IMG/VR virus record: IMGVR_UViG_3300044627_003686
Coordinates: 1 to 41,550 of that record
Source: a virus
Reading direction: 5' to 3' (one strand)
DNA length: 41,550 nucleotides
In this document: positions 45 to 40,887 of the stretch, in pieces
Position numbering within the stretch: the first letter of the stretch is position 1
Layout of the letters: every line of letters begins with the position of its first letter
Notes under the pieces: generated by a model
What the model was told of the DNA's origin: nothing
Databases searched by the model: none
The model's input: only the letters and a program-made list of their open reading frames with translations
Position numbers and translations under genes: made by a program

Positions 45-74
45 GCTGATACAGGTACAGGTGCAGCAGGATCA
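45..74 (-). repeat. Dispersed repeat, copy A
   Basis: Read on the minus strand, this matches the full-length form of the family, including the TGATCCTGCTG left part and the core CCTGTACCTGTATCAGC. It faces copy B. Bases 45-67 and 118-140 are a perfect 23-bp inverted repeat. Confidence 0.85.
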
Positions 75-117
75 TGGTTCCCCTTGCATGAACATGTCTC
101 AGAAGAGGGTCTTTAAT

Positions 118-145
118 GCTGCACCTGTACCTGTATCAGCGACGG
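118..145 (+). repeat. Dispersed repeat, copy B
   Basis: This has the complete core at 124-140, preceded by GCTGCA and followed by GACGG, as in copy F. It is the right arm of the perfect 23-bp inverted repeat with copy A. The 50 bases between the arms would form the loop. Confidence 0.85.
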
Positions 146-244
146 ATCTGGTGGCCGATGAGGATCGCGATGATCGGATAGGATCGGGGACGCGCGGCGC
201 CGATCGTACAGGATCGGATCAGATCGGTGACGCGAGCGCTTCGG

Positions 245-260
245 GTTGCGGATCTGCAAC
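245..260. promoter_or_regulatory. Near-palindromic operator-like site, left
   Basis: GTTGCGGATCTGCAAC has 5-bp palindromic arms, GTTGC and GCAAC, around GGATCT. Its exact reverse complement is found at 311-326, on the other side of the candidate promoter. Two mirror copies around a -10 box look like repressor operators, or like a transcribed stem. The binding protein is unknown. Confidence 0.45.
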
Positions 261-274
261 AAGGAAAAAACGAG

Positions 275-305
275 TTAATAGTGGGGAAGTACAAGAGGTT
301 ATACT
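275..305 (+). promoter_or_regulatory. Candidate sigma70-like promoter
   Basis: TTAATA at 275-280 and TATACT at 300-305 are separated by 19 bases, in a locally AT-rich patch of a GC-rich sequence. The -10 box is a 5/6 match to TATAAT and the -35 is a weaker 4/6 match. The candidate points toward the gene at 532 and lies between two matching palindromic sites, so it may be repressible. Confidence 0.4.
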
Positions 306-310
306 GAGCA

Positions 311-326
311 GTTGCAGATCCGCAAC
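311..326. promoter_or_regulatory. Near-palindromic operator-like site, right
   Basis: GTTGCAGATCCGCAAC is the exact reverse complement of the site at 245-260. It begins 6 bases after the TATACT box, so a protein bound here would overlap the likely transcription start. The two sites could also pair in RNA or cruciform DNA across a 50-base loop. Confidence 0.45.
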
Positions 327-531
327 GTCTCAAGGATCTCTTATAGGGAAACGAGCGGTGATCCCCACCCGCGTGCGCGAGGGCGGGCGTGAGCGGGCAG
401 GCGCGCGCGAGGGCGGGGATGCAAAAACGAAACAGCCGGGCGGCGTGCGTTCACAGGCGCCGCTGCTCACGATTGAGGACAGCGAACCAAACAGGCGACC
501 GTCACAGCGGCGCCTGCGCATGGAGGCTCTG

Positions 532-1578
532 ATGGGACAGGCACCGTTGAACGAGTACAGGATCAGGCACAGCGACCCCAAGGGAAAGTTCGATGATCTC
601 TATGAGATTGAACACCTTAGCGCTCAGATCGGGCTGCAATATGGCCTGAATTTGGAGATGATGCGCCGCACACCGTTTGGCAACCCGCGCAAGATCGCGC
701 TCATGGCCCGCGTCACGCAGATCGGCGGCAAGCGGGCGACGCTGGAGTTTCTGGAGTGGGCGATGCACAAGGCGCTCGAAGAGCCGGAATGGCTTGAGGA
801 TATTTGCTGGAATCAAGCAGACATGTACTTGATCCAGTCCAAGGCGGCGCTGCGCCAATACCTCACCATGAAAGAGGCCGCCGAGCGCGCCGCCCTCATC
901 GCCTCGCGCGCCGCTGCGGCTCAAGCTGCTCCCCTGCCCGAGAATGAGGGAGCCCCCCGCGCTCCGCGTGTCGCCCGCCCTGCCGAGCAGCACACCGCCA
1001 CGATGCCGCAGCCCGTTCGCAAGGGGAGCATCGAGTCATACCGGGGCGGCATCACCGCGCCTGTGCCGATCGAGCTGCTGAGGCTCGACGATGAGGAGTT
1101 CATCGAGTTCTTCAAGCGCCCCGAGTTCCTGCGCCTCCCCCACGACCCACATCAAGGCAACATGCTCTTCGGCTGGCTGGTGCGCCCGCCCGCCGAGCAG
1201 GCGATGGGCTTCCAACAGTGGGTCTACTACATGGTCGATATGCGGCGGCGCTACACCGGGCTGATCGCGTTTGACCACGCGCAACATCGTGCGTCACGCT
1301 GCGGCTGTGATGCCTGCTATCACTACCGCGCCCACGCCGACTCGATCGATCGGCTGCTCGCGCAGCCTGTGGTGTGGCGCCAGCGAGAGGCGATTGTGAA
1401 GACGGGGCTTGACGACGACTTTCTTGAGCCAGAAGATTACATCGCAAGCGGCCTCGACCCGGAGACGCGGCATTATACGCTCGAAGACAGGCGCCGCATG
1501 GATGAAGCGGCAGCCGCGTGGAAAGAGCGTGGTGCTGTGCTCTGGGAGGAGGCGAGGCTGAACCGTCCCCCCATCTGA
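532..1578 (+). CDS. Protein of unknown function
   Basis: This gene encodes about 348 residues, and I do not recognise the family. The ATG at 532 was chosen because GGAGG lies about 6 bases upstream. The frame is open back to base 1, but that upstream part is low in complexity, arginine-rich and crosses the repeats. The N-terminal third looks like a folded helical domain. It is followed by an Ala/Pro-rich linker and then a second conserved-looking part with a cysteine cluster, CGCDAC, that may bind metal. The C-terminal end is acidic. It opens a run of small phage genes ahead of the replication module, so an early or DNA-metabolism role is possible but unproven. Confidence 0.6.
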   Translation: MGQAPLNEYRIRHSDPKGKFDDLYEIEHLSAQIGLQYGLNLEMMRRTPFGNPRKIALMARVTQIGGKRATLEFLEWAMHKALEEPEWLEDICWNQADMYLIQSKAALRQYLTMKEAAERAALIASRAAAAQAAPLPENEGAPRAPRVARPAEQHTATMPQPVRKGSIESYRGGITAPVPIELLRLDDEEFIEFFKRPEFLRLPHDPHQGNMLFGWLVRPPAEQAMGFQQWVYYMVDMRRRYTGLIAFDHAQHRASRCGCDACYHYRAHADSIDRLLAQPVVWRQREAIVKTGLDDDFLEPEDYIASGLDPETRHYTLEDRRRMDEAAAAWKERGAVLWEEARLNRPPI

Positions 1579-1599
1579 CATCACCGCCGAGCCCGCCCC

Positions 1600-1962
1600 A
1601 TGACCAGCGCTTTTGCGCCCGAAGCATCGCCCACCTCCCCCGCCACCCCGCTTGAGCGCATCAGCGAGCGGGGGATCACCCCCTCGGAGCGCGTGCGTCG
1701 CGCGCAAGAGGCCGCGCAGGACTCGCTGATCGTCGGGCTTGGCCCCACCACCGTCCCCGGCTGGACGGTGAAGTGTGGCATTAGACAGGAGCTAGTGAAT
1801 ACGATAAGATGTGATGGTTGCTGCGCGTCGGATCAGTGGTCCACTGTGGCGCGCGAGCAGGTGAGGAGCCGCTGTCCTGTATGGCAGCGCTGGCGCCAAG
1901 CCAAGAGCGAGAACAAGGGCGTGCATCAGCCGCCTATCCCCCAGACACCACAGGAGCCTTAG
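1600..1962 (+). CDS. Small protein of unknown function with a cysteine cluster
   Basis: This encodes about 120 residues, starting at an ATG 21 bases after the preceding stop. The N-terminal half is rich in Pro, Ser, Thr and Ala. The second half carries a CDGCC cluster followed by another Cys, a possible metal site. The stop TAG directly abuts the ATG of the next gene at 1963, which supports translation. No clear Shine-Dalgarno site precedes the start. Reality of the gene is likely; its function is unknown. Confidence 0.5.
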   Translation: MTSAFAPEASPTSPATPLERISERGITPSERVRRAQEAAQDSLIVGLGPTTVPGWTVKCGIRQELVNTIRCDGCCASDQWSTVAREQVRSRCPVWQRWRQAKSENKGVHQPPIPQTPQEP

Positions 1963-2166
1963 ATGCCTACCCCCGATCACACGAGCAAGATGCTCACCGA
2001 GGACATGCCCGCCCCCCGCACCTCGCAGTCGCAGTTTGAGAGCCTGCGCGGCGGCGGCGCGAAGCCCCAGATGCTCACCGAGGAGGAGGAGCGCGAGGAG
2101 GAGCTTCGCAAGGAGCGCGAGGCGCAGGCGGCGCGGGGCGAGAAGCCGCGCGGCAACCGTCGCTGA
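1963..2166 (+). CDS. Small highly charged protein of unknown function
   Basis: This encodes 67 residues. The middle is a charged helix made almost only of Glu, Arg and Lys, and the tail is basic (Gly/Arg/Asn). The ATG directly follows the upstream TAG. AGGAG lies 6 bases before the ATG, a strong ribosome site. A repeated KMLTEDM/QMLTEEE-like motif occurs twice. Composition suggests a coiled or disordered accessory protein. I cannot assign a role. Confidence 0.55.
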   Translation: MPTPDHTSKMLTEDMPAPRTSQSQFESLRGGGAKPQMLTEEEEREEELRKEREAQAARGEKPRGNRR

Positions 2167-2175
2167 TCGCGCGCG

Positions 2176-2817
2176 GTGTTCAACACCCGTTCGCTCGGAT
2201 GCAAGGCGTGCAGCCTCGGAGAGAAAACCGAGCTGCGCGCCTTGTCCGTTGGTGAGCCGACCGCCGACATCATGCTCGTCGGCTGTGATCTGCGCTCAAC
2301 CCACCCCTTCTCTCCCGGCCTCGGCGGCCACGCCGCGCGCTACGGCGCGACCTCGGGCATCATCCCCGCAGGTGGCCCCTTCATCGAACGCTGGTGTGAG
2401 TCGCGCGACGTGGCGCCGGAGCGGCTGTTCTCCACCTACGCTGTGCGCTGCCTCGTCCACGCGATCGATGAGCGCCAGCCCGAGCCCATCCACAAACTCG
2501 AAGGCATCCTCCCCTGCCTGCAACACCACCTCTCCTTCGAGATCGAGCGGATGCAGCCGCAGGTGATCGTCTGCTTTGGCCCGATCGCCAAGGCGGCGAT
2601 CATGCTTTACTGGAGCTTCCCAGCCCGCTACACCGTGAAGGTAAGAAGCGGCGGCCACAACGCGCTCAAGGTTTCGCCGCCTGAGTGCTGGTGGCACGAC
2701 GCGACCTACATCTTCGACGCCCCACCCGTCAGCGCCCGCGCGTTGCTCGACGAGTCGCGGGTGTTCGCTCTGCTTGATGAGGCCATGCACCATGTCAGAC
2801 CACGACCCGAGCGCTGA
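2176..2817 (+). CDS. Uracil-DNA-glycosylase-superfamily (family 4/5-like) protein, probably degenerate
   Basis: This encodes 213 residues from a GTG start. The frame resembles iron-sulfur uracil-DNA glycosylases: CKAC at residues 9-12, then TADIMLVG, PFIERW, an RC near residue 92, LPC near 114, and QPQVIVCFGPIAKAAI. The four cysteines are placed as expected for the 4Fe-4S cluster. The first catalytic motif, usually GEAPG, is replaced by GCDLR, and the HPS motif near the C terminus is not visible. The protein may therefore bind DNA or uracil without cutting the glycosidic bond. It overlaps the next gene by 26 bases. The fold is fairly likely; activity is doubtful. Confidence 0.6.
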   Translation: MFNTRSLGCKACSLGEKTELRALSVGEPTADIMLVGCDLRSTHPFSPGLGGHAARYGATSGIIPAGGPFIERWCESRDVAPERLFSTYAVRCLVHAIDERQPEPIHKLEGILPCLQHHLSFEIERMQPQVIVCFGPIAKAAIMLYWSFPARYTVKVRSGGHNALKVSPPECWWHDATYIFDAPPVSARALLDESRVFALLDEAMHHVRPRPER

Positions 2818-3112
2818 ATCCGCCCCGATCGACCCCTCCGCTCCGCCCATGCCCCGGCCTGTCTCCCGCGCCCAGCTCCTCGACCACTGGATCGAGCCGC
2901 TGCCCGTGGAGATCCCGCCCATGAGCCGCTGGCACCGCTTCATGTTCGAGCTGTGGCTGGCGATCGCGGAGTGGCTGCTGCTGCTCGCGCTGCGCCGCCA
3001 GAGCGTCTTCTTGGAGAGCTGCGGCAAGCGGTGTCTGCGCCGCGCCTTCAAACATCAGCGCGGGCTGCTGCCGATCGCCCGCTCCGATGCCTTCTATAAG
3101 TTCGATCAGTAG
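2792..3112 (+). CDS. Small protein with one possible membrane helix
   Basis: This encodes about 106 residues. The ATG at 2792 is preceded by GAGG, and the gene overlaps the end of the UDG-like gene. After a Pro-rich N terminus, residues of about 50-72 form a hydrophobic Trp/Leu-rich helix (ELWLAIAEWLLLLALRR) that could be a single membrane span or an amphipathic helix. The C-terminal part is basic with two Cys. No family is recognised. Confidence 0.5.
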   Translation: MSDHDPSAESAPIDPSAPPMPRPVSRAQLLDHWIEPLPVEIPPMSRWHRFMFELWLAIAEWLLLLALRRQSVFLESCGKRCLRRAFKHQRGLLPIARSDAFYKFDQ

Positions 3113-3174
3113 CGCCTTGCCGCCGCTGTCCCCCGCTCTGCCGCTCGTCATCACCTGCCTCGCCGGAGGGCATC

Positions 3175-5040
3175 TTGTCCGATCGTGATCCTGCACAAAA
3201 GAAAGACCTGCACCTGTCCCTGTATCAGCAAGGCTTGAGCAGCACGCAGCGGGCCGTGGTGGAACATCCGCTTGAGGGTCCGGGCCAGCTCGTGATCGCT
3301 GGCGCTGGGTCTGGCAAGACGCGCACGGTGATGGCGCGCATCGAGCGGCTGATCAACGAGGGGGTGGACCCCAAGAGCATCCTCGCGCTCACCTTCTCGC
3401 GCCGCGCTGCTCAAGAGCTGCAACATCGTGCATACGGCCAGCTCAAAGAGGTCCAGTGGACGACGCTTCATTCATGGGGCAACCATATGCTTGAGGCGTC
3501 CAGCGGGAAGCGCATGACGGTGCTCTCCTCGTTTCGAGCTTGGCGCGCGTTCAAGGATCTGTCCTTCAACAACAACACCGGCTTCTCCTCCGGCCAGCTT
3601 TGGAAGGTGTGGCAGGCGCTCCAGAAGCTCAAGGCGCATCCTGTGCCGCCGTCAAATTGGCATGTCTGGTTTCAAACGCAGCGGGTGGAGCGCGCGCAGG
3701 TCGCCGCCGATCTCGCTGTGCTGTACGAGCGCCACAAGCGGGCGAGCGACCTCATCGACTATGACGACATGCTGTATGGTGCATGGCAGCTCTTGAGCAT
3801 CGCCTCTGAGCGCGAGCGTTTTTTGTCCTCCCTGCGCTACGTCTTCATCGACGAGGTGCAAGACCTTAACCCGATCCAGATCACCCTCTGCGACCTGCTC
3901 TCCTCTCAAGCGCAGATGTGCGCCGTGGGCGATCTGGCGCAGTCGATCTACTCGTTTCGGCACGCGGAGCCCGCAGCGGTGCTCCTCTACGCGCGCCGCC
4001 ACAGCCTCCAGCGCCGCCTGCTGCCCGAGAATTTCCGCTGTGGTCGCGCTATCACGCAGGCGGCCAACAGCCTGATCGATGCCATGAGTCGCGTCGTCCC
4101 GGTGTTCGCGGCGGTCCCTGTATCCAAGGCGCAGGGCCAGATCAGCGCCGAGGTCGTGGAGAGCCATGAGCGCGAGGCCGCGCGGCTGGTGGAGCTTGTC
4201 AGCGAGCGGCTGCTGCTCGGCCACAGGGCAGATCAGAACGCTGTGCTGTGCCGGACGCGCGCGCAGATGGCGCGCGTGGAGCACGCCCTGTCCGCCGCCA
4301 AGATCCAATACACCACGCTTGGCGCCGGGTTCTTCGACTCGCATGAGGTCCAGCAGTCGCTCGCCATGCTCAAGCTCGCGAACAAGCCCGAGCACATGAT
4401 CACCGTCGAAGACCTTGAGGCGTTTTCGACCATCCCGCCCTGCGGTCTGCCGACAAACTGGAAGACGCTCGTGGGGGATGGTGTGGGCGCCATCGGGCGC
4501 ATCGATCTGATCGCGCGGGCTCGGCGCATCACTGGCTGGCAAGGGCTCCAAGAGCTTGCGAGCCGCTGGCGCGCGGTGTCACGCCAGTCCAAGGGCGGCG
4601 CCGACGCTGCGCGCGGGCTCCAGAGCATTTATGCGCTTGCAGACCCCCGCCATTCGTGGCAGACTTTCTATCAATGGGGTTCGTTCACAGACGTGAGCGA
4701 GCCCGACGATAAGCGCTCCGACAACTTGGATGCGCTGCACGATCTGGCGATAGGCCGCACCGTCACGGATCTCCTCGACTCCCTCCCTCGCTCATCGTCG
4801 GGCGGCGTGGTCGTCGGCACCGTGCATCGGGCCAAGGGGCTCGAATACGATGCGGTGTACCTGCCGGGATGGTCCCAAAAGCTGTTCCCTCACGAGCGCT
4901 GCCCGCTCGAAGAGGAGCGGCGGCTTGCTTATGTCGCGATCACTCGCGCCCGTGAGCTTGTCTGGATCGGCGTGCCGCAGCATCGCAAGAAGGGCCGCGC
5001 TCTCGACCCCTCTCAATTCATCAAGGAGCTTGGGCTTTGA
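3175..5040 (+). CDS. UvrD/Rep-like superfamily 1A DNA helicase
   Basis: This encodes 621 residues. It is a 3'-5' DNA helicase of the UvrD/Rep type, acting in phage DNA replication or repair. All motifs are present in order: Walker A AGAGSGKT (42-49), motif Ia LTFSRRAAQEL, motif II FIDEVQD (224-230), motif III VGDLAQSIYSFR, motif IV LPENFRCGR, motif V GTVHRAKGLEYDAVYLPG and motif VI RRLAYVAITRARE. The length is slightly below the cellular enzymes. The TTG start is chosen because GGAGGG lies about 4 bases upstream. The N-terminal codons run through a copy of the dispersed repeat. Its stop overlaps the TTG start of the next helicase. Confidence 0.92.
   Translation: MSDRDPAQKKDLHLSLYQQGLSSTQRAVVEHPLEGPGQLVIAGAGSGKTRTVMARIERLINEGVDPKSILALTFSRRAAQELQHRAYGQLKEVQWTTLHSWGNHMLEASSGKRMTVLSSFRAWRAFKDLSFNNNTGFSSGQLWKVWQALQKLKAHPVPPSNWHVWFQTQRVERAQVAADLAVLYERHKRASDLIDYDDMLYGAWQLLSIASERERFLSSLRYVFIDEVQDLNPIQITLCDLLSSQAQMCAVGDLAQSIYSFRHAEPAAVLLYARRHSLQRRLLPENFRCGRAITQAANSLIDAMSRVVPVFAAVPVSKAQGQISAEVVESHEREAARLVELVSERLLLGHRADQNAVLCRTRAQMARVEHALSAAKIQYTTLGAGFFDSHEVQQSLAMLKLANKPEHMITVEDLEAFSTIPPCGLPTNWKTLVGDGVGAIGRIDLIARARRITGWQGLQELASRWRAVSRQSKGGADAARGLQSIYALADPRHSWQTFYQWGSFTDVSEPDDKRSDNLDALHDLAIGRTVTDLLDSLPRSSSGGVVVGTVHRAKGLEYDAVYLPGWSQKLFPHERCPLEEERRLAYVAITRARELVWIGVPQHRKKGRALDPSQFIKELGL
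3207..3229 (+). repeat. Dispersed repeat, copy C (inside helicase gene start)
   Basis: The core has one mismatch (CCTGTCCCTGTATCAGC). It lies within the first 20 codons of the UvrD-like gene, in a frame different from the AAPVPVSA frame seen elsewhere. A separate TGATCCTGCAC, resembling the left part of the full repeat, lies just upstream at 3186-3196. Confidence 0.75.
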
Positions 5041-7898: not shown

Positions 7899-7908
7899 GG
7901 ATCACACC

Positions 7909-9471: not shown

Positions 9472-9480
9472 GCCCACCCC

Positions 9481-9831
9481 ATGACCAGCGATCAGAACAA
9501 CCCGCCCCAAGGCGCAGGATTGATCAGCGGCGGGGCGGAGCACCTGCCGATCATGGGCGAGCTGATCGATACGCCTGATGGGGAGGCGCTGGTGGTTTCT
9601 GTCACAAGCTCTGGTGATGTCATGTGGGATGCTGCCATGATGCGGCGCGTCCGCGCCCATACCGCAGGCCATCCAGAACGATTTGCGCTGCTGCACGTCA
9701 AGATGCTTGCAAGCGGCAAAGAGACGACATATCCTTCTTGGCAAGTCACGCGCCGCGCGGCACCCGCCAAGGGTCCGATCTGGCGCCAGAACCTTGTTGC
9801 CACTATTGGCGCGGGGTTCAATAAACCATGA
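9481..9831 (+). CDS. Small protein of unknown function
   Basis: This encodes 116 residues starting 9 bases after the previous stop. The N terminus is Gly/Asn-rich, followed by a likely alpha/beta domain containing LPIMGELIDTPDGEALVVSV. No known motif or membrane segment is visible. It is located immediately before the helicase-loader gene. Codon use looks like its neighbours. Confidence 0.6.
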   Translation: MTSDQNNPPQGAGLISGGAEHLPIMGELIDTPDGEALVVSVTSSGDVMWDAAMMRRVRAHTAGHPERFALLHVKMLASGKETTYPSWQVTRRAAPAKGPIWRQNLVATIGAGFNKP

Positions 9832-9876
9832 GCTGCGATGGTGGTATTGCAGCTCTTCACCCGCAAGGAATCGCGG

Positions 9877-10698
9877 ATGAACCTCGCTCAATCAATGGGC
9901 GTCATTGTGGAGAAGGATCTCCACAAGATGCGTCTCCCTGTTCACGTCCACACCGCGCGTCTGGCTCACCTTCGCGAGACGCCTTCGTTTGGCGCCATCT
10001 CAAAATATATCGCCAATATCCATGAGTTGAGCGCGAGAGGTAAGGGCGTCTGTATGGTCGGCCCGACGCAGAGTGATCGACTCACACCGTCTGCCATTCT
10101 GCTGCGCGCGTTCCGCGTCTACGGCGCCACATGCCTCTATGTACACGCCGACGATCTGCGGCCCTCCCAGAACCGCTCAGAGGTCAAGCTCATGGATCAG
10201 GCGCGCACCTCTCAGGTGCTCTTGCTCGACGAGCTTCCCATCATGCCTTCTCACCTCTCCGATCAGATCGTCTCCCTGCTCCGCCGCCGCCGCGCCTCCG
10301 GCCTGATCACGCTCGCGACCCTCTCTGTCATGGTCTGTCTGCTGGAGAACACCATGCGCGACGTGTACGCCGACAGCATGTACTTCCTGAGCGCGACCCC
10401 TGAGAAGGTATGGGTTGATCTGGAGCTGCCCGAAGCCTCCCGCGTGTATGCCTCCCCCATCAAGTCTTCTGCTGCTGCTCCTGTACCTGTATCAGCCGCG
10501 TCCCGAGGCGCCGCGTCGCTTGAGGTCGATGAAGACCTCGTGACACCAGCGCTCGCTGCTGCCGCCTCCCCTCCTCCAGCCGCCCCCTCCGAGGACAACG
10601 ATCGCGAGCTGCCGACGCCGCCCGCTGCGGTGGTGCTTCCGCGCCGCGCGCCCGAGCCCATCAAGCGCCGCCTGAACGATAAGGAGGGCGCCAGATGA
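9877..10698 (+). CDS. DnaC/IstB-like helicase loader with degenerate P-loop
   Basis: This encodes about 273 residues. The layout is that of an AAA+ helicase loader: a helical N terminus, then KYIANIHELSARGKGVCMVG, the P-loop position, a strand with CLYVHADDL, Walker B VLLLDELP (about 114-121), and a third strand with GLITLATLS. It is directly upstream of, and overlaps by ATGA, the DnaB-like helicase it would load. The P-loop reads VGPTQSDRLT and lacks the GKT lysine. The C-terminal 90 residues are an Ala/Pro-rich tail containing AAPVPVSA, encoded by a copy of the dispersed repeat. The ATG at 9877 is preferred over 9838 because AAGGAA lies upstream. Confidence 0.65.
   Translation: MNLAQSMGVIVEKDLHKMRLPVHVHTARLAHLRETPSFGAISKYIANIHELSARGKGVCMVGPTQSDRLTPSAILLRAFRVYGATCLYVHADDLRPSQNRSEVKLMDQARTSQVLLLDELPIMPSHLSDQIVSLLRRRRASGLITLATLSVMVCLLENTMRDVYADSMYFLSATPEKVWVDLELPEASRVYASPIKSSAAAPVPVSAASRGAASLEVDEDLVTPALAAAASPPPAAPSEDNDRELPTPPAAVVLPRRAPEPIKRRLNDKEGAR
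10471..10500 (+). repeat. Dispersed repeat, copy D (in frame in the helicase loader)
   Basis: The complete core lies at 10480-10496. It is read in the GCT-CCT-GTA-CCT-GTA-TCA frame as AAPVPVSA, within a Pro/Ala-rich linker where an insertion would be tolerated. Confidence 0.85.
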
Positions 10699-17877: not shown

Positions 17878-18866
17878 CGGGCTGGGGCAAGAAGAGGAAG
17901 GGGGCCAAGCCTGCTGCTCCTGTACCTGTAACAATGGCGGCTGACATGGCAGAGGCGGCCAAGCTGGAGCCGATGACATCGACGCGGTGTCCCTACCACG
18001 CTGCCTATACCCCTACGCGCCCGCCCAAGACGGGCGGCGACGGCCAGACCTGTGAAGTGTGCTGGTGCATCTTCAACGCCCAGCATGACCTCCCAACAGG
18101 GAACCGCCTCCCCAAGAAGGATTACAGCGGCTATCAGCGCTTGAGCCGTTCCGTTCCGTTCGTGGAGAGCGCCCTTGCTGTGTTCGGCGTGCCTCGCGGC
18201 GCAGGTAAGCTCGACGATCTCACCGTCGTATTCCAGAAGCTCTTGCGAGAGAGCTTCACGCTGGAGGTGATGTCACTCGACCTGTCGATGCGATCGGCAG
18301 GTGTCGTGCTCGTCGGCCATCTCCCCGCTGTGTTTGACGGCCAAGCTGCGAAGCGCTGGCTGGGGCTTTCATTCACGACGGGCGCACCGCTCCCCATGCA
18401 CGCTTCTGATCAGGAGCGGCTTGCGAGGCAGCTCACGATCGCGACCGAGATCGTCAACGCATTTCGCCCCTTCAAGCACCGTGGGCCAGAGGGGGCGACA
18501 CCTGCTATATACTTGGAGGACCACATTTATCACGAGGAAGACAGCTCAAGAGCCCACGACATGTTTGAGCTGCATGGCATCGTGAAGTCGCAGTTGTACT
18601 TGACGTTCAAGCGTGTCCCTGCAAGGGTCAACGTAGGAACGGCGCCGCTGCACGTTCACCACAGCGGCACATGTCGCAAGGATTACGCGCGCGCGAGCTT
18701 CATCGCAGCGGGATGGGACTGGACCGCATCGCTCACAGAGGATGAGATCGATGCGTTGACCATCGCGCTGCTCCATGTCAAAAGACATCACCCGCGCGGT
18801 GTCGATGAGCGTCTGGCTCTGGACACCGCCTTCTTCAAGCACAGGAAAGCAAATGGCAGTCGATGA
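17874..18866 (+). CDS. RuvC-like (RNase H fold) Holliday-junction resolvase candidate
   Basis: This encodes 330 residues. An N-terminal cysteine and histidine cluster (CPYH at 39-42, CEVCWC at 60-65) may bind zinc. The catalytic part has the RNase H strand order of RuvC: VMSLDLSMRSAGVVLVG with D136, IYLEDH with E215, an ELHGIVK helix, and TEDEIDALTIALLHVK supplying late acidic residues D290/D293. Such resolvases clear branched DNA before packaging, which fits its place just ahead of the terminase genes. Near the N terminus AAPVPV is encoded by a truncated copy of the dispersed repeat. Confidence 0.65.
   Translation: MTGWGKKRKGAKPAAPVPVTMAADMAEAAKLEPMTSTRCPYHAAYTPTRPPKTGGDGQTCEVCWCIFNAQHDLPTGNRLPKKDYSGYQRLSRSVPFVESALAVFGVPRGAGKLDDLTVVFQKLLRESFTLEVMSLDLSMRSAGVVLVGHLPAVFDGQAAKRWLGLSFTTGAPLPMHASDQERLARQLTIATEIVNAFRPFKHRGPEGATPAIYLEDHIYHEEDSSRAHDMFELHGIVKSQLYLTFKRVPARVNVGTAPLHVHHSGTCRKDYARASFIAAGWDWTASLTEDEIDALTIALLHVKRHHPRGVDERLALDTAFFKHRKANGSR
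17910..17931 (+). repeat. Dispersed repeat, copy E (truncated, in frame)
   Basis: The sequence matches the family through CCTGTACCTGTA and then diverges, so the right end is lost. It is read in the AAPVPV frame near the N terminus of the RuvC-like protein, ahead of the folded part. Confidence 0.75.
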
Positions 18867-19785
18867 GTTCGAGGATCATGAGGCAGATGAGATCGGGGCG
18901 GACTTTGGCGGGCTCACCGTCGTTGAGGATGGGGCGCTCGTGGACCCCACCGCGCCGCTCGGGGAGAGCGAGGATCAGCGCCGCGAGCTGGCGCTGCGGA
19001 CAGCGCAGACCGTGCGCGACCTGCGCGCCCGCGATAACGAGCTGAACGTGGAGCTGGCCCGCTCGCTGTTCGAGATCAAGGCGTCGGCCCTCTACATGTA
19101 CATCACGAACGAGGCGACGGGGGAGCCCTACACCTCGTTCAAGGATTATATCGCAGAGGAGGTCAACTTCTCGCTGCGCCGCGCGGACTACTACGCCGCG
19201 ATCTACCGCTGGTTCGCCGTCCAGCACAGCGCCGACTTCCTCGCGCATATGGCGGTCGTGCCCTTCCATAAGCTCAAGGAGCTGGCGGGGCTCGTGGAGC
19301 CTGACACCGCCCAGAGCTGGATCGATCTGGCGCTCAACCCTGCGGTGTCCACGATCGAGTTCAAGGCCGAGGTGTCGAAGGCCAAGGAGAAGCTCAAGGG
19401 CGACGACAAGAAGGAGATGCCGATGGCGCCGGTGGGCGCGATCGCTGATCCCTTGAAGTCCGTCACCTTCAAGCTCAATCCCATCCAGCACGAGCGCGTC
19501 AATAAGGCGCTGGCGCTGGCGCAGACCTACGGCGGCACCGATGAGAAGGGCCAGATGCTTGAGGTCTTGGCCGAGTGCTACATCGAGCAAATCGAGTCGC
19601 AGGATCAGAACGCTGAGGACGAGGTGCCGCTCGTGACCAAGCTGCTAAAGATCGAGCGAGAGCATGGTGTGAAGCTCGTGGCGATCAACTCGGACGATGA
19701 GAGCGGCCCGCAGATCGTGCATGGCATGGCGGCGCTGCAAGCTGCGCTCGGGAACGCCGAGGATGAGGCGCCCGCCGAGGGGTGA
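18853..19785 (+). CDS. Possible DNA-binding protein of unknown function
   Basis: This encodes about 310 residues from an ATG preceded by AGGAAAG, overlapping the previous gene by 14 bases. The N terminus is acidic. Residues of about 70-130 (ELARSLFEIKASALY, SFKDYIAEEVNFSLRRADYYAAIYRWF) look like the helix-turn-helix-bearing segment of some phage and plasmid proteins. A Lys-rich linker and a helical C-terminal half follow, ending acidic. It is the last gene before the terminator at 19812, so it could be a regulator or packaging factor. I cannot name it. Confidence 0.55.
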   Translation: MAVDEFEDHEADEIGADFGGLTVVEDGALVDPTAPLGESEDQRRELALRTAQTVRDLRARDNELNVELARSLFEIKASALYMYITNEATGEPYTSFKDYIAEEVNFSLRRADYYAAIYRWFAVQHSADFLAHMAVVPFHKLKELAGLVEPDTAQSWIDLALNPAVSTIEFKAEVSKAKEKLKGDDKKEMPMAPVGAIADPLKSVTFKLNPIQHERVNKALALAQTYGGTDEKGQMLEVLAECYIEQIESQDQNAEDEVPLVTKLLKIEREHGVKLVAINSDDESGPQIVHGMAALQAALGNAEDEAPAEG

Positions 19786-24501: not shown

Positions 24502-24533
24502 TCCTGCTGCACCTGTACCTGTATCAGCGACGG
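24499..24533 (+). repeat. Dispersed repeat, copy F (at the portal stop codon)
   Basis: This is one of the longest copies, matching from TGATCCTG through the core (24512-24528) and GACGG. Its first TGA is the stop codon of the portal gene. A terminator follows 22 bases later. Confidence 0.9.
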
Positions 24534-31492: not shown

Positions 31493-31497
31493 TCAAG

Positions 31498-32262: not shown

Positions 32263-32816
32263 TGAATCGCAATTTGTTCATGTGGTTTGAGCTGCCGCGC
32301 GGTGTGAAGGCGCATCTGCGGGCGAACGCGGCCAACGGCCTGACCAACCCGGATGGTGATCTGCACATCACAGCCTTCTATGAGAAGGATGTGGACGCTG
32401 AGAGCGCCAAGCGGTTTATGTCGTCGATCAAGGCTTTGGCGCAGAGCTGGCAACCGATCCGGGTGGCGACCACGGGCGCGGCGATCTTCGACGGTGCGGG
32501 CGACGGCGGGCGCTTCCCGCTCATCTACCTCATCAACGCGCCGGGCCTTGAGCGCTGGCGCGTGGCGATCATGGATGCGTTCGAGGATGCGGTGGGGCGT
32601 GATGCAAGCCAGCGCTTCGGGTATATCCCGCACCTGACGTTGACCTATGTGGAGCCGGACAAGGAGCTTGAGCATGGCTGGGAGCGCGACATGGTGAGCA
32701 TGGCGCCTCCGCCTTGGATGATGCGCAAGATCGGCGTCAAGTGGGGTGACAAGGCGCTCATGCTGGAGCTTGGGACACCGGGCTGGCGCGAGCTGCAACC
32801 GGGCGAGGGCGCATGA
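32262..32816 (+). CDS. 2H phosphoesterase (LigT/Acb1-like fold), candidate counter-defence enzyme
   Basis: This encodes 184 residues with the two HxT motifs of the 2H phosphoesterase superfamily: LHITAF (H35, T37) and PHLTLTY (H124, T126), spaced as in the family. These enzymes act on cyclic phosphates or 2'-5' linkages. Within this superfamily T4 gp57B (Acb1) degrades the cyclic nucleotide signals of CBASS immunity, while LigT-like members act on RNA ends. Which substrate applies cannot be read from sequence. AGGAGG precedes the ATG, which overlaps the previous stop by 1 base; the end overlaps the next gene by ATGA. It is unusual to find it inside the neck genes. Confidence 0.75.
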   Translation: MNRNLFMWFELPRGVKAHLRANAANGLTNPDGDLHITAFYEKDVDAESAKRFMSSIKALAQSWQPIRVATTGAAIFDGAGDGGRFPLIYLINAPGLERWRVAIMDAFEDAVGRDASQRFGYIPHLTLTYVEPDKELEHGWERDMVSMAPPPWMMRKIGVKWGDKALMLELGTPGWRELQPGEGA

Positions 32817-33439
32817 GCCTCAACCAGCGACCAAAGATCCTCACCTCTGTCCCAAAAGAGGTGATGCTCCAGATGCGTTATGTCTGGGAGCACACGTTGC
32901 TCTCCTCCTCGCATCCAGCGGGCTCCACCACGCTCTCATCTGTGCCGCTGTATCCGAAGACGCAGGTGTCAGCGGGTGAGGCGCGTTCGGATCGCAACGT
33001 GGGGATGCCCGGCATCAACCCCCCCGCTTCGCTCGGGCTGCGGATCTGGCGCGCTGGTGTGGAGCGGGTGGACCCCATCTATGGTCAGCCGATCGGGCAG
33101 GAGTTCGAGGCGCCGTATGTGACGATGGGCGTCTTGAAGTATGATGCGACGAGCAACCGCGACCTGTCACAAGGCGAGTGGGGTCAGCAGCTCTCAAACA
33201 CCGGCGAGCTGCATATCCCGTATTATCACCACCTGATCAATCAGCTCCCGATGCCACAAGAGGGTGATCTGGTCGAGGTGTGGGCGCAGAGCTGGGAGCT
33301 GCTGGGGACGTTCTACAACATCATCAAGGTCGATCCAGCAGGCCGCATACAGGGCGGGCCATATTACACCCGCTGGCAGCTCCAGCTTGAGCGGCGCGAG
33401 GAGTTCTTACCTGAGCGGCGGCTGCTCGGCTGTCGCTGA
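32813..33439 (+). CDS. Probable neck or connector protein
   Basis: This encodes 208 residues. The ATG overlaps the stop of the phosphoesterase gene (ATGA). A conserved-looking segment has EGDLVEVWAQSWELLGTFYNI and a C-terminal YYTRWQLQLERREEF, which resemble head-tail connector proteins of other myoviruses. The tail end is arginine-rich. Its stop TGA lies within repeat copy H. A neck role is inferred from place and this pattern. Confidence 0.5.
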   Translation: MSLNQRPKILTSVPKEVMLQMRYVWEHTLLSSSHPAGSTTLSSVPLYPKTQVSAGEARSDRNVGMPGINPPASLGLRIWRAGVERVDPIYGQPIGQEFEAPYVTMGVLKYDATSNRDLSQGEWGQQLSNTGELHIPYYHHLINQLPMPQEGDLVEVWAQSWELLGTFYNIIKVDPAGRIQGGPYYTRWQLQLERREEFLPERRLLGCR

Positions 33440-33455
33440 TACAGTTACAGGAGCA
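33434..33455 (-). repeat. Dispersed repeat, copy H (minus orientation, at a stop codon)
   Basis: On the minus strand the core reads CCTGTAACTGTATCAGC, with one mismatch. On the plus strand the repeat's TGATAC end supplies the TGA stop codon of the gene at 32813. Hairpins follow at about 33480 and 33503. Confidence 0.8.
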
Positions 33456-33571
33456 TCATGTTGCGGGCGTGATATGTTGCATGAGCTGCGCGCGTCATGG
33501 CATCACCGCCTTTGTGAAGCGGTGAGCCTTGTCATGGCGCCGCAAGAGACACCACCAAAGGAGCAGCGAGC

Positions 33572-34123: not shown

Positions 34124-34124
34124 G

Positions 34125-35734: not shown

Positions 35735-35764
35735 TCATGGTGTTCAAGAACGAAGGCGCACAGG

Positions 35765-35794
35765 TTGAATGGCGGCATGGCGAGCCGTTATAAA
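35765..35794 (+). promoter_or_regulatory. Candidate promoter upstream of the gene at 35846
   Basis: TTGAAT (35765-35770) and TATAAA (35789-35794) are separated by 18 bases. The boxes match TTGACA at 4/6 and TATAAT at 5/6. It stands out in a GC-rich sequence and lies about 50 bases before the ATG at 35846. It is a plausible sigma70-type start for the tail operon. Confidence 0.4.
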
Positions 35795-35845
35795 GGCGTC
35801 TCGGAAGCACAAGTCGCTCGAAGCGGGCGACGTGAGGAGAGCACC

Positions 35846-36358
35846 ATGTCAAAGTTTCGCGTCATCTCGCCAACACCGATCACCCTCAACTTGCTCAACG
35901 GCAAGACCATCTCAGCATCCAAGCGCATGATCGTGGAGCCCATCAAGGACAACTTGTTCGAGACGGCGCGCAAGAAGGGTTATCTGGTGCCGCATTATCC
36001 CGAGCACATGCTCCAGATCGCACCCTCCGAGGCGCCGCCCGCGCCGCCCGCTCCCGCACCCGTCATGGATGTGGTTGCTGCTCCTGTACCTGTATCAGCG
36101 ACCGTTGAGTCTGCTGAGGTGGTGGATGAGGAGGGCGACAAGGAGGAGGCGAGCGGCAAGGATGAGAAGGCGCCCGAGGAGGTCAGCGTCGAGAAGCTGG
36201 AGCTTGCGGCGCGCACCAAGCAGGCGCTCATCGCTGGCGGCTACACCGTCGTCAGCCAGATCAAGGCCGCCTCGAACGAGGAGCTTGAGGCTGTGTCTGG
36301 CATCGGCTCAAAGACCGTTGACCTGATCCGCGCGGCTGTGGCTTCGCTGGATAACTGA
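35846..36358 (+). CDS. Late protein with C-terminal helix-hairpin-helix (alpha-CTD-like) domain
   Basis: This encodes about 170 residues from an ATG with GAGGAGAG upstream. The N-terminal 55 residues (SPTPITLNLLNGKTI, VEPIKDNLFETARKKGYL) look like a small beta-rich domain also seen near phage structural genes. A Pro/Ala linker encoding AAPVPVSA from repeat copy I follows, then an acidic stretch. The last 50 residues (ARTKQALIAGGYTVVSQIK, SNEELEAVSGIGSKTVDLIR) match the helix-hairpin-helix pattern of RNA polymerase alpha C-terminal domains. DNA or RNA polymerase contact is possible, but unproven. Confidence 0.6.
   Translation: MSKFRVISPTPITLNLLNGKTISASKRMIVEPIKDNLFETARKKGYLVPHYPEHMLQIAPSEAPPAPPAPAPVMDVVAAPVPVSATVESAEVVDEEGDKEEASGKDEKAPEEVSVEKLELAARTKQALIAGGYTVVSQIKAASNEELEAVSGIGSKTVDLIRAAVASLDN
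36074..36103 (+). repeat. Dispersed repeat, copy I (in frame)
   Basis: This is an intact core (36083-36099) read as AAPVPVSA in the linker between the two domains of the gene at 35846. The flanking GACC matches copy J. Confidence 0.85.
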
Positions 36359-36370
36359 TACAAAGTAAGG
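36355..36370 (-). repeat. Weak degenerate copy of the dispersed repeat
   Basis: CTGATACAAAGTAAGG resembles the minus-strand form CTGATACAGGTACAGG with a few changes. It overlaps the stop TGA of the gene at 35846, as copy H does at its gene. It lies next to the sheath ribosome site, so chance similarity is also possible. Confidence 0.3.
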
Positions 36371-36380
36371 AGATAGCACG

Positions 36381-39050
36381 ATGTTGCTCACGAATCCCGG
36401 TGTATACCGCGAGGAGGTCCGCCGTGACCTCCGCGTCCTGCCCGCGCTGTCCACCGCGAATCTCGCGCTGGTCGGCGCCTTCTCCAAGGGGCCGGTCGGC
36501 CAGCCCACGTTCGTCGCGTCAGATGCCGAGTTCAAGCGCATCTTTGGCGACTTCACCGCTTTGTCGCGCGCGCCGCTGGCGTGGGCAGCCTATGCGTTGA
36601 ACGGCGGCCAGTTTGGCTACATCCTGCGGCTTGCGCCCTCGGATGCCGAGACGGCTGTGGCCTCCTTCGCGAAGGCTGCGGCGCCTGTGACCCTCGCCAC
36701 GGCTTCTGGCGGCGGTCCTGTGGCGGTGAACCTCGCTGCTGGCCCCTCCCCGCTCAACAGCCTGCCGATCAAGCCGGGCACGGTGACGATCCAGATCGCT
36801 GATGTGAAGCAGGTCAGCTTGTTCAACACGGGCGTGACCTACGCGATCGCGGCCACCTCTGTGAACCTGACGCTCGGCAACCGGCTGGTCGTGCCGGGGT
36901 CGTTCTCGACAACGATCGACGGCGACTCCTACACCGACGACGGCGCGGGCGGCATCGAGCAGGGCGTCACCCCCTCCGGCACGATCGACTATGAGACGGG
37001 CGCGGTGTCCATCACGCTCACTGGCCCCTCGGCTACGGCGGGTTCTGTGATCGTCGGCTACCAGTACAACCTGTCCTCTAAGGTGAGCGGCGAGGTCGCC
37101 GCGCAGGCCGTGGCAGGTGCGACGGTCTATCATGGCAAGGTCGCCAACGGCGATCTGCTGACGAGCGCCGACAACGACTTCATGGTCTTCTCGTGGACTG
37201 ATGCTGGCGACGTGGCGCGCACCGCTGAGGTCGATGATCTGGGCGCTGTGACGGGCGATGCGACGGGCACGGTGGATCTGGCCTCGGGCGAGTGGACGCT
37301 GTTCCTCGGCGTGAACACGGTCAAGGTCGGCACCGCGATCAGCGTCTCGTACTGGCACAACCGCTACATGACCGCGACCGATGATGGGCTCGGCGGCTTC
37401 ATCAACGGGACGGTCCCCGCGCTGAACCTCGCCCAGCCGCGTGCCATCAACTATGAGACGGGCGCCATCTCGTTCACGACCAACACCGTCGCGCTGACGG
37501 GCTCCCCTGTGCGCGCCTTCTACTCGCAGGCTGTGCAGGCGATGGAGGCGCGCGATCCGGGTGCCTCGGGCGACGATCTGCGCGTGCAGATCACGCCGGT
37601 CAACTCCTCGCTCAACCGCTTGACCGGCCAGTATGCGCTGTTCAACGTGTCAGTGCAGGAGGAGAACGCGGGCGATGCCAACTTCACGCAGGTCTGGGCC
37701 ACGACGAACGCGGTGAACCTCGACGATGTGGCGAACGCGCGCCACATCGCGCAGGTCGTCAACGATGACATCACCGGCGCGCAGATCGTCTCGATGGCGA
37801 TCCCCGCCGACGATGCGATCCCCGATGGGTTGCAGGGCGCCACCGACACGCAGGATCTCGGAGATGGGACGGGCGCGGCGGTGGAGATCCTGTCGCAGCT
37901 CTACCTGTTCGATGGGCGGATCGTGCCGGGCTCTGTGCGCATCGCGTATACGAGCGGCGGTGTCGCGCGCTCCATCGTGGACAACAACCTCGGCGGCCTG
38001 ACGGGCGATGTGGATGGGGGCTCGACGGCCTCGATCGACTACACCACGGGCGTGCTCCAGTTCACGCCGGATCAGGCGCCGGACAACTCGACGGCGGTGG
38101 AGGTCACGTTCGCCTACCTGCCGCTCACGAGCCTCGCCACGACCGACTTTGAGGGCGGCGAGGACGGCAGCGCGTTGTCTACCTCCGATGTGGTCGGCCC
38201 GACGCTCTCCGCGATCGATGGCGGTATCTACGGCCTGAACAAGATCGAGGAGATCCCGCTCATCCTCGCGATCCCCGACTTCGCTGGTGTCGTCGCCGTG
38301 GAGCGCGAGGCGATCGCGTATGCCGAGCAGCGCTTCGACACGATCGTGCTGTGCTCGCCGCCCGCAGGTGTGACGCGCGATCAGGCGATCGAGTATCGCC
38401 TCTCGGCGCTGGCGTCCAACTCCTCGCGCGCGGTGATGTACTGGCCTTGGATCAAGGTCCGCGACCCGCTCTCGGGCGCGACGGTCACGGTGCCGCCGCA
38501 TGGTCATGTGGCTGGCGTCTGGGCGAAGACGGATCAGGTCGAGGGCATCCAGCAGGCGCCCGCAGGCACCGTCTTCGGGCGGCTCCAGTTCATCGAAGGC
38601 GTCGAGCGCGTGGTGAGCAAGGTGGATCTGGGGCTGCTCTCGCAGGTCGGGATCAACTCGCTGTATCGCCCGCCGCGCCAGCCGCTCGTGGTGTACGACT
38701 GCCTCACGCAGTCGGATAACATCGACTTCCGCTTCCTGAACGTGCGCCGCGTCAAGGACTATCTTGACATCCTCGTGGCGGAGGCGCTGGGCGATCTGGT
38801 GTTCCGCAACCTCGGCCCGACGCTGTGGTCGATCGCGACGCAGCGCATCCGCACGGTGCTCTCGCAGGCGTTCCGCAACGGGCAGCTCCGGGGCACGTCT
38901 GAGGCGCAGGCGTTCGAGATCAAGGTGGATGGCGAGAACAACCCGCCAGCGGTCGAGGAGGCGGGCGAGCTGGTGTGTGATTGGGGGATCAGTCCGGGCC
39001 GCCCCGGTCGCTTCATCCGCTCGCGCAGCCGCATCCTCGCGGTGCAGTAA
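36381..39050 (+). CDS. Tail sheath protein (gp18-like) with four inserted beta repeats
   Basis: This encodes 889 residues, about 230 more than T4 gp18. It forms the contractile tail sheath. The N terminus PGVYREEV and the C-terminal core (WSIATQRIRTVLSQAFRNG, then CDWGISPGRPGRF) are typical of sheath proteins. The extra length comes from repeated beta modules at about 130-230, 250-327, 328-383 and 505-580, each with a form of DDGxGGxxG...IDYETGAxSxT...VxYxY. The same module is in the capsid protein. They would sit on the outer face. The ATG follows AAGGAG. Confidence 0.93.
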   Translation: MLLTNPGVYREEVRRDLRVLPALSTANLALVGAFSKGPVGQPTFVASDAEFKRIFGDFTALSRAPLAWAAYALNGGQFGYILRLAPSDAETAVASFAKAAAPVTLATASGGGPVAVNLAAGPSPLNSLPIKPGTVTIQIADVKQVSLFNTGVTYAIAATSVNLTLGNRLVVPGSFSTTIDGDSYTDDGAGGIEQGVTPSGTIDYETGAVSITLTGPSATAGSVIVGYQYNLSSKVSGEVAAQAVAGATVYHGKVANGDLLTSADNDFMVFSWTDAGDVARTAEVDDLGAVTGDATGTVDLASGEWTLFLGVNTVKVGTAISVSYWHNRYMTATDDGLGGFINGTVPALNLAQPRAINYETGAISFTTNTVALTGSPVRAFYSQAVQAMEARDPGASGDDLRVQITPVNSSLNRLTGQYALFNVSVQEENAGDANFTQVWATTNAVNLDDVANARHIAQVVNDDITGAQIVSMAIPADDAIPDGLQGATDTQDLGDGTGAAVEILSQLYLFDGRIVPGSVRIAYTSGGVARSIVDNNLGGLTGDVDGGSTASIDYTTGVLQFTPDQAPDNSTAVEVTFAYLPLTSLATTDFEGGEDGSALSTSDVVGPTLSAIDGGIYGLNKIEEIPLILAIPDFAGVVAVEREAIAYAEQRFDTIVLCSPPAGVTRDQAIEYRLSALASNSSRAVMYWPWIKVRDPLSGATVTVPPHGHVAGVWAKTDQVEGIQQAPAGTVFGRLQFIEGVERVVSKVDLGLLSQVGINSLYRPPRQPLVVYDCLTQSDNIDFRFLNVRRVKDYLDILVAEALGDLVFRNLGPTLWSIATQRIRTVLSQAFRNGQLRGTSEAQAFEIKVDGENNPPAVEEAGELVCDWGISPGRPGRFIRSRSRILAVQ

Positions 39051-39055
39051 GCAGC

Positions 39056-39087
39056 GCGCCGCGCCGCTCGTGTGAGCGGCGCGGCGC
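39056..39087 (+). terminator. Perfect GC hairpin after the sheath gene
   Basis: A 14-bp stem (39056-39069 with 39074-39087) has the tetraloop GTGT and starts 6 bases after the sheath stop codon. No T run follows, so it may stop transcription partly, or protect the sheath mRNA end. Confidence 0.65.
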
Positions 39088-39150
39088 TCGCGAGTGTCAA
39101 GACAAGAAGGTTCATAACAGGGCGCGACGCGCGCTCTATCGGAGATAGAC

Positions 39151-39714
39151 ATGGCTCGTGGAACACAAAAGGACTTCTTGCAGGGGCACCGCTTCTTTGT
39201 CCGCTGCAACTCGGAGCAGGGTCTTGACCTGCTCCAGCCCCCGCTGGCCGAGGCCGACCCGCGCGGTGGTCTGGCGGGCTTCAACTCTGTGACGCTGCCG
39301 GACCTCTCGCTTGAGGCGGTCGAGTATCGCGACGGCGTGTCGATGTTCACCGCCAAGCAGGCTGGCTTCCCGCAGATCGGTGATCTGACGATGCAGCGCG
39401 GCGTGATCCGCAACGACTCGGCCTTCTATGAGTGGGCGATTCGTGCGTATCGCGGGCAGGGATACCGCGCCGATCTCACGATCCTCGTGTTCCCCGCCGA
39501 GGCGCTGATCGGGCGCGAGTTCGCGGGGCGCAACGCGCTCTTTGACGAGTCGCTGGCGACCAAGTACATCTGCTATGAGTGCTTCCCCACCAACATCGGT
39601 GCGTGGAACCTCGACGCGACGGGCGCCGACATCTTGATGCAAGAGGCGACGTTCACCTGCGAATACTTCACGAAGATCCATCCGGGCGAGCCGGACACGA
39701 CGACCCGCTTCTGA
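39151..39714 (+). CDS. Tail tube protein (gp19-like)
   Basis: This encodes 187 residues. It stacks to form the inner tube of the contractile tail. The pattern FNSVTLPDLSLEAVEYRDG near residues 54-72, GDLTMQRGVIRNDSAFYEW, and the C-terminal ATGADILMQEATFTCEYF strand fit gp19-like tubes. It follows the sheath gene, as in T4. GGAG precedes the ATG and a hairpin follows the stop. Confidence 0.85.
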   Translation: MARGTQKDFLQGHRFFVRCNSEQGLDLLQPPLAEADPRGGLAGFNSVTLPDLSLEAVEYRDGVSMFTAKQAGFPQIGDLTMQRGVIRNDSAFYEWAIRAYRGQGYRADLTILVFPAEALIGREFAGRNALFDESLATKYICYECFPTNIGAWNLDATGADILMQEATFTCEYFTKIHPGEPDTTTRF

Positions 39715-39722
39715 TCGATCCC

Positions 39723-39753
39723 CAGCGCTGCGCGACACTCTCGCGCAGCGCTG
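39723..39753 (+). terminator. Perfect hairpin after the tail tube gene
   Basis: A 13-bp stem (39723-39735 with 39741-39753) closes a 5-base loop, CACTC, 9 bases after the tube stop codon. It has no T run but is too long and perfect to be chance. It may limit read-through or stabilise the tube mRNA. Confidence 0.65.
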
Positions 39754-39781
39754 AACACCGCCTCGCCAACAGGAGCTTGAG

Positions 39782-40648
39782 ATGGCGCGATCTCGACTGT
39801 GGGATCTGTATCAAAATCACAAGTTCCATCTATTCGACATCACCGAGTCCACAGCGCTCACGTCGTTCCTTGATCGACGTGACGCGCTGCTCGGGCTCGG
39901 CGGTGCGATCTCGGGCCTGCGCGCGCCGCGTCAGGTGCTCTCGCCCCAATACGCCTTCCAGAGCATCACCGCGCCGAGCTTGACGCTCGACTATGAGGAG
40001 ATGAAGTCTGGGACAAACCCGTTCAAGCGCCACGTCCCCACAGACGCGGAGGTGGACCCGCTGACGCTGACGCGCGGCGTGTTCATAGGCGACTCGGACT
40101 TCTACGACTGGATCATCACAGCGGTCTATGGCCGATCGGTGTACCGCCGCAAGCTGATGCTTGTCCAGCTCTTCAACCCTCCCCCGACTTTTGATGTGGG
40201 CGCGCTGGGCACGATCAACCCCACGGTGTCATGGGTCCAGCTCGTCGGCGGGCTCGTCACGACCACAGCAGAGAGTGAGGTGGCGGGCGGCGCGGCCAAG
40301 GCGCTCTCATCTGCCGCCGCCGCCGCCGCTGTCGCCTCGACGTTTGCCGCAGGGCTCGGCGCTCAGGCCGCGAGCAACGCGATCAACAGCGGGCTCAACA
40401 GCACGGTGCTCGGGCTCACGCCTGCCGACATCCTCGCGGCGGTGACGGCGCGCGTGTGGGTGCTGCATGACTGCGTGCCTGCGTCATACAAGTCCACGTC
40501 AGACTTTGACGCGAACAGCGCCGACATCGGGCTCCAAGAGCTTGAGATCCGCATGGAGCGCTTTGAGGAGTTCACGATGGACACCAAGCCCATCACCACG
40601 CCGCTTGGCTCCACGATCGCGGGCGCCGTCTTGAACGGGCTGACGTGA
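39782..40648 (+). CDS. Second tail-tube-like protein with Ala-rich insert
   Basis: This encodes 288 residues. Parts align in pattern with the tube protein: FQSITAPSLTLDYEEMKSG, LTLTRGVFIGDSDFYDW, and a C-terminal LQELEIRMERFEEF. It is about 100 residues longer. The extra part includes an Ala-rich segment (SSAAAAAAVASTFAAGLG) that is hydrophobic. It could be a tube initiator or a tail-end cap placed at the baseplate or neck. The ATG has GGAG upstream. It is probably a paralogue of the gene at 39151. Confidence 0.65.
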   Translation: MARSRLWDLYQNHKFHLFDITESTALTSFLDRRDALLGLGGAISGLRAPRQVLSPQYAFQSITAPSLTLDYEEMKSGTNPFKRHVPTDAEVDPLTLTRGVFIGDSDFYDWIITAVYGRSVYRRKLMLVQLFNPPPTFDVGALGTINPTVSWVQLVGGLVTTTAESEVAGGAAKALSSAAAAAAVASTFAAGLGAQAASNAINSGLNSTVLGLTPADILAAVTARVWVLHDCVPASYKSTSDFDANSADIGLQELEIRMERFEEFTMDTKPITTPLGSTIAGAVLNGLT

Positions 40649-40671
40649 CCCCCTCCCCCGCTGGTGTGAAG

Positions 40672-40887
40672 ATGAAGACCTGCTCTTGCCGTGCCTGTAC
40701 CAGTATCAGCGACCGATACGAGAGCGCCACGACGACGGCCAACCTCTCTGCCTACCCTGTTCCGATCGGCGGCGCCCCGCTGCGCAACACGTTCTCTGAG
40801 CCGATCGCGATCGTGAGCCGATCCGCCGCGCGCCGACGCCGCAGGCAGGAGCGCCAGCGGCGTCGCGGAGAGCTGCCCGCTTGGTGA
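40672..40887 (+). CDS. Small basic Cys-containing protein of uncertain reality
   Basis: This encodes about 71 residues from the ATG at 40672. The N terminus has CSCRAC, part of which is encoded by repeat copy J in an alternative frame. The middle (LSAYPVPIGGAPLRNTF) looks like a real protein, and the C-terminal part is very rich in Arg. The gap between the tube-like gene and the next gene would otherwise be empty. It may be real but small. Confidence 0.4.
   Translation: MKTCSCRACTSISDRYESATTTANLSAYPVPIGGAPLRNTFSEPIAIVSRSAARRRRRQERQRRRGELPAW
40691..40714 (+). repeat. Dispersed repeat, copy J
   Basis: The core has one mismatch (CCTGTACCAGTATCAGC, 40694-40710) and the trailing GACC of copy I. 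It lies 43 bases after the stop of the second tube-like gene. Confidence 0.75.

Follow-up and report, generated by a model that had tools for sequence, protein, structure and literature searches.

The window analyzed here comprises the whole of one IMG/VR record (41,550 bases with 63.6% G+C, classified as a linear molecule and a probable fragment), and it raises the question of why a phage would carry the same short sequence at ten places along its genome. The window encodes a distant T4-like myovirus, with a portal, head protease, major head protein, tail sheath, terminase, helicases and primase, and all 40 genes predicted by a simple codon-model script lie on the plus strand; as the window and the records of its relatives may all be incomplete, gene content is described below for the records as they stand. 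The initial annotation had reported the repeat as ten copies, eight pointing one way and two the other, and had offered a mobile or copying element, a protein-binding site, or a recombination or packaging signal as explanations.

Both the copy number and the eight-to-two split between strands were borne out. A search with the 17-nt core, allowing up to three mismatches, finds ten matches, at 45 (minus strand), 124, 3213, 10480, 17919, 24512, 30294, 33435 (minus strand), 36083 and 40694, the weakest being 17919 with three mismatches. One hundred dinucleotide shuffles of the window give a mean of 0.07 core matches and a maximum of 2, compared with the 10 in the real sequence, so the repeat withstands the same-composition control that had been proposed for it. 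Alignment of the ten copies reveals a conserved unit, TGCTGCWCCTGTACCTGTATCAGCGAC, of 27 nt that spans positions -7 to +19 relative to the core, and conservation stops sharply at both of its edges. The start positions first given for the copies were right to within a few bases, the offset arising in part because the unit extends to 7 nt before the core. Scored against a matrix, the copies reach 32.5–43.2 bits, while the next-best placements in the real sequence, mostly shifted alignments of these ten copies, reach at most 12.4 bits, and the maxima in shuffled sequences are 12–16 bits. The unit contains three successive, mutually similar hexamers (TGCWCC, TGTACC and TGTATC); it is not a clean palindrome and has no 16-bp palindrome with central CG or CA of the ParB/Noc type. 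The copies and the hairpin beside copy 6 are as follows.

42-68, minus strand: copy 1, core exact; pairs divergently with copy 2 at the left end, which is non-coding and rich in GATC
117-143, plus strand: copy 2, core exact
3206-3232, plus strand: copy 3, one core mismatch; near the N-terminus of a UvrD-like helicase ORF
10473-10499, plus strand: copy 4, core exact; within a C-terminal extension (at a DnaC-like position) absent from orthologues, where it is translated as AAPVPVSA
17912-17938, plus strand: copy 5, three core mismatches; in a gap or an N-terminal extension ahead of a RuvC-like gene
24505-24531, plus strand: copy 6, core exact; starts 3 nt past the portal stop codon
24562-24594 (approximate), plus strand: intrinsic-terminator-like hairpin downstream of copy 6, conserved in relative L043
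30287-30313, plus strand: copy 7, core exact; starts 3 nt past a stop codon and is followed by a strong hairpin
33432-33458, minus strand: copy 8, one core mismatch; antisense to the genes and overlapping the end of ORF 32813-33439 at its stop codon
36076-36102, plus strand: copy 9, core exact; within an unconserved linker of ORF 35846-36358, where it too is translated as AAPVPVSA
40687-40713, plus strand: copy 10, one core mismatch; 38 nt past a stop codon, in a 350-nt gap

The distances between copies (3.1, 7.3, 7.4, 6.6, 5.8, 3.1, 2.6 and 4.6 kb) are irregular; the 6–7 kb interval noted earlier describes only three or four of them and does not amount to regular spacing. The description of the copies as lying in coding, intergenic and regulatory DNA was correct but understated their bias toward non-coding DNA: most of them lie between genes, and none of 20,000 random placements was as extreme. 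Comparison with related phages shows that the four copies within predicted genes occupy segments that are absent or unconserved in orthologues; copy 3, for example, is read as LHLSLYQQ at an N-terminal insertion of about six residues missing from orthologues. Translation gives AAPVPVSA or AAPVPVT for the copies at 10473 and 36076, and for that at 17912 under an early gene start; the copy at 3206 is read in another frame, a possible small Cys-rich ORF at 40672 would read copy 10 in the third, and the rest are non-coding or antisense. Because the copies are read in three frames, lie in both orientations and also occur in non-coding DNA, a shared coding constraint, which had been raised as a possible cause, does not explain the repeat.

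Several other features of the window lie near the copies. The left end (1-360), which could be an origin or control region, is non-coding and holds 18 GATC sites in 360 nt, roughly four times the window average, together with 16-nt near-palindromes (GTTGCGGATCTGCAAC and GTTGCAGATCCGCAAC, at 245 and 311) on either side of an A-rich stretch. The window holds only three instances of the octamer TTGCATGA (84, 30342 and 33477), each of them within 60 nt of a copy of the repeat and two in a longer, similar 52-nt stretch, numbers too small to interpret. ORF 35846-36358, directly ahead of the tail sheath gene, contains a helix-hairpin-helix resembling the C-terminal domain of RNA polymerase alpha (PF03118, E 4.7e-7).

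The sequence of the element seems to be confined to this phage species or genus. Across 2.9 million viral contigs the core was found in 42 stretches, with one match each and in unrelated contexts but for a single relative, a 4.6-kb contig that is 94.7% identical over the terminase–portal region. This contig, the only close relative to cover any copy, retains both the copy behind the portal gene, in which a single, variable position differs, and the hairpin downstream of it. Single-protein searches with the capsid and DnaB returned no close relatives, and the window sequence is absent from relatives whose capsids are 38–44% identical. Among 84,980 bacterial and archaeal species genomes a 23-mer of the element is absent and a 20-mer has two matches, which is near chance; the element is therefore not a host site in any of these genomes.

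Although these distant relatives lack the window motif, most have a dispersed site of their own. Repeat searches of eleven large records from the same T4-like clade, made without the window motif, revealed a lineage-specific site in nine, present in 2 to 28 copies and, with its flanks, mostly a 16–18 bp palindrome with central CG or CA; the same search found no clear dispersed site in the other two (G001 and G009). The sites are listed below with copies counted at up to one mismatch for G003, G011–G014, G002 and G008.

G003 (185 kb): GCACCCGGGTGC, 11 copies
G011: GCAATCAATTGC, 11 copies
G013: GCAAGCGCTTGC, 9 copies
G012: GCAAGCACTTGC, 9 copies
G014: GAACTCAAGTTC, 28 copies
G002: GTCCACATGGAC, 4 copies
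G008: GCAATCGTGTGC, 12 copies
G010: GGACCGCACGGTCC (CGGACCGCACGGTCCG-like), about 12 copies at up to three mismatches
G016: the G011 site, 2–3 times
L204 (a short contig beyond the eleven): GCAATCGATTGC, six times

The relatives' sites are placed much like those of the window. All seven relatives tested show enrichment in gaps, with sites often touching stop or start codons. Random placement was as extreme in 1 of 20,000 trials for G003 and 3 of 20,000 for G002, and in 5,000 permutations it was so in none for G008, G013 or G014, in 9 for G011 and in 86 for G012. The portal stop codon is directly followed by an element in both the window and G003, with unrelated sequences; this coincidence could be due to chance, as a rough estimate, not computed, puts one shared junction at about 0.4. 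Strict positional orthology of the sites is not supported, since the portal junction is the only position in common with G003 and the sites of G008, the best-covered collinear relative with 24 collinear orthologues shared with the window, lie at other places. With W = A, the left arm of the window element (CTGCACC) equals the G003 half-site, a suggestive sequence match that may link the two. We infer from the shared clade and placement that the 27-nt element is kin to the relatives' palindromes. In other viral contigs, the G003 element has only single, unrelated matches.

The relatives' records also contain further repeats and insertions. In G003 (L129–L138, for example at 168190 and 182308), about 13 early-type promoters carry the palindrome GTGCACAGCGTGCAC in the spacer that separates TTGAC from the -10, in many cases with AGGAGGTAGCGATG after it; the palindrome looks like one operator common to many promoters. 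Promoter-like motifs are also repeated in G002 (CACTACAATTGTTGACC, six times, 10070-41890) and G001 (CTCTTGACAAACCG-like, 9157-45600), and in G011 (L257–L264) another dispersed motif, AAAGTTTCTTTG, recurs at about twelve positions. Portal genes with intein-like inserts are found in L044 (11209-13782) and G001 (66493-69417). A small serine recombinase (PF00239) is encoded at 74857-75531 of G003, and one dispersed G003 site lies 78 nt past its stop codon.

Taken together, the element is probably recognized by a sequence-specific DNA-binding protein that the phage itself most likely encodes, as one member of a genome-wide set of such sites. Among the explanations first offered, protein binding is the best supported because the element has a sharp boundary, its placement is harmless, no duplications were seen flanking the copies and the relatives have differently spelled sites; a mobile element is unsupported, while a recombination or packaging signal is neither supported nor excluded. 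The anatomy of the site points to binding by a protein, and the window element and the relatives' palindromes presumably serve the same function, although the window element, with its 27 nt and no clean palindrome, may be a different kind of site. On this protein-binding explanation, about ten copies would be kept genome-wide in inter-gene gaps and tolerant protein segments, providing landing sites with a spelling particular to each phage that would shift as the protein changes. The bound protein would act on the whole genome, either stopping or dampening transcription at gene junctions in the manner of stoperators, or organizing, anchoring or segregating the DNA in the manner of ParB or Noc, or by some mix of both modes.

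The form of this explanation based on transcription control, by analogy with stoperator-type immunity, is possible but doubtful. In such a system a prophage repressor would bind asymmetric, co-oriented sites at gene junctions and block elongation, and the position of copies directly past stop codons and the separate consensus of each relative are consistent with it. Eight of the ten copies point along transcription, but the 8:2 split alone is not significant with so few copies, and the palindromic sites of the relatives make orientation meaningless there. Furthermore, the window record, a fragment, has no match to PF01381 (HTH_3 repressor) or PF00589 (integrase), no tyrosine integrase was found in G001–G003, and T4-like phages are usually virulent. 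Organization of the phage DNA by a ParB- or Noc-like protein is likewise a tentative reading, drawn by analogy, in which the sites would nucleate protein spreading on or bridging of the DNA for segregation, compaction or membrane anchoring. The relatives' genome-wide palindromes of 16–18 bp resemble parS and the 16-bp Noc sites, and PF02195 (ParB_N) proteins occur in seven relatives (G002, G009, G011, G012, G013, G014 and G019), one of those in G011 reading like a full ParB. Several of the PF02195 proteins, however, have no evident HTH and two are fused to an apparent methyltransferase; the window element is no such palindrome; PF02195 was not found in the window record, a fragment, nor ParB_N in those of G003, G008, G010 and G016, which contain palindromes and may be incomplete; and a search for AAA_31 ParA in G000–G003 was negative. 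The window itself offers one candidate for the site-binding protein.

18856-19785, plus strand: candidate site binder, a conserved, clade-wide protein with weak resemblance to DUF3102; an unproven lead only

Relatives of this protein are encoded in G001–G003, G008–G014 and G016, usually upstream of terminase, with a PF02195 gene directly downstream in G002 and G009. It has no relative in the PDB, its only family match is the weak one to DUF3102, and a profile alignment to the G011 ParB failed, leaving kinship with ParB unsupported. An AlphaFold model made without an alignment has a pLDDT of 40 and is too poor to use. The G011 member of the family (73039-75252) carries an intein-like insert.

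Three alternatives remain. Promoters for a phage-modified or phage-encoded RNA polymerase would account for the mostly shared orientation of copies and genes, the divergent pair at 42 and 117 and the scarcity of sigma70-like promoters in the window, and a TTGACA-type promoter is present at the post-portal junction in G001, G002 and L052. We nevertheless regard promoters as unlikely. A terminator-like hairpin closely follows copy 6, another copy runs antisense to the genes, and within gaps the copies lie on the side of the stop codon; conservation ends with the 27-mer, with no -10-like block beyond it, and the sites of G003 and G014 are too close to start codons (2–14 nt). There is similarly little reason to favor a short selfish or copied repeat that persists where it is harmless, as REPIN or RPE do. 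Consistent with copying, the placement in gaps, extensions and linkers is insertion-like, and a left flank beyond the unit, TGATCCTGC, is common to three or four copies, including those at 42, 24505 and 30287, with 32 nt (CATGATCCTGCTGCACC...) identical between the first two. The element itself, however, lacks terminal inverted repeats and a hairpin, no flanking duplications or transposase were seen and it has not spread to other phages or hosts; moreover, a near-intact core between differing flanks needs selection or very recent spread. Least probable is an RNA element, such as a signal for antitermination or processing that works at the level of the transcript. The bias in orientation and the hairpins downstream of three intergenic copies would suit such a signal, but two copies are on the minus strand, an Rfam scan returned no match, the relatives' sites are DNA palindromes, and mutations in the GCTG/CAGC arms are uncompensated across copies. 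A tRNA scan of the window was likewise negative.

A bolder version of the protein-binding explanation, which we put forward as speculation, is that the clade shares an address system in which sites with species-specific spelling are read by a clade-conserved protein and mark phage DNA as self, the window site having evolved from a palindrome into a longer, one-way site. The reader might be a protein of the 18856-19785 family, joined in some phages by a ParB-type partner, and the marking would serve organization, segregation or transcription shut-off; the whole is conceivable, though rather improbable. We know of no genome-wide, species-specific sites of this sort from large virulent-looking phages, and a limited search of the open-access literature found no published report of them. 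If bound, the sites would reveal by what means these phages mark their DNA in the cell, arrange it or switch it, and they are ready baits for finding the binding protein. As most relatives have a spelling of their own, changes in the site could be matched directly to changes in the protein.

How does the element compare with known systems? REPIN and RPE sequences have terminal inverted repeats or a hairpin and occur in many genomes or with a transposase, whereas the window element has none of these properties. The centromere sites of phage N15 and the c1 operators of P1 are another parallel, being a few dispersed genome sites bound by a phage protein, SopB or C1, although no counterpart of either protein was found in the window. 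The bacterial parS site is a palindrome with central CG or CA, the basis of its likeness to the sites of most relatives, which are likewise genome-wide palindromes of about this form; unlike bacterial parS, the relatives' sites are phage-specific, and the window element is non-palindromic. Noc in turn binds a 16-bp site, the NBS (PMC8429893), and such sites are reported to be scattered around the chromosome (PMC4331003). Stoperators are dispersed, asymmetric and oriented one way, with a consensus that differs between subclusters (PMC6550527, PMC9283540). Those of the cluster A mycobacteriophages L5 and Bxb1 resemble the window in that many short, phage-specific, asymmetric sites lie mainly at gene junctions; they are 13 bp long and have a known immunity repressor, whereas the element here is 27 nt (with palindromes in the relatives) and belongs to a T4-like myovirus in which no repressor or integrase was seen. 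The SPBRE of Bacillus phage SPbeta lies in promoter regions, while copies in the window hug stop codons, one ahead of a terminator-like hairpin, and four are in genes or extensions. Like the window element, however, SPBRE is a repeat at several intergenic places, and after its discovery in silico it was recognized decades later as the binding site of MrpR (PMC10516654).
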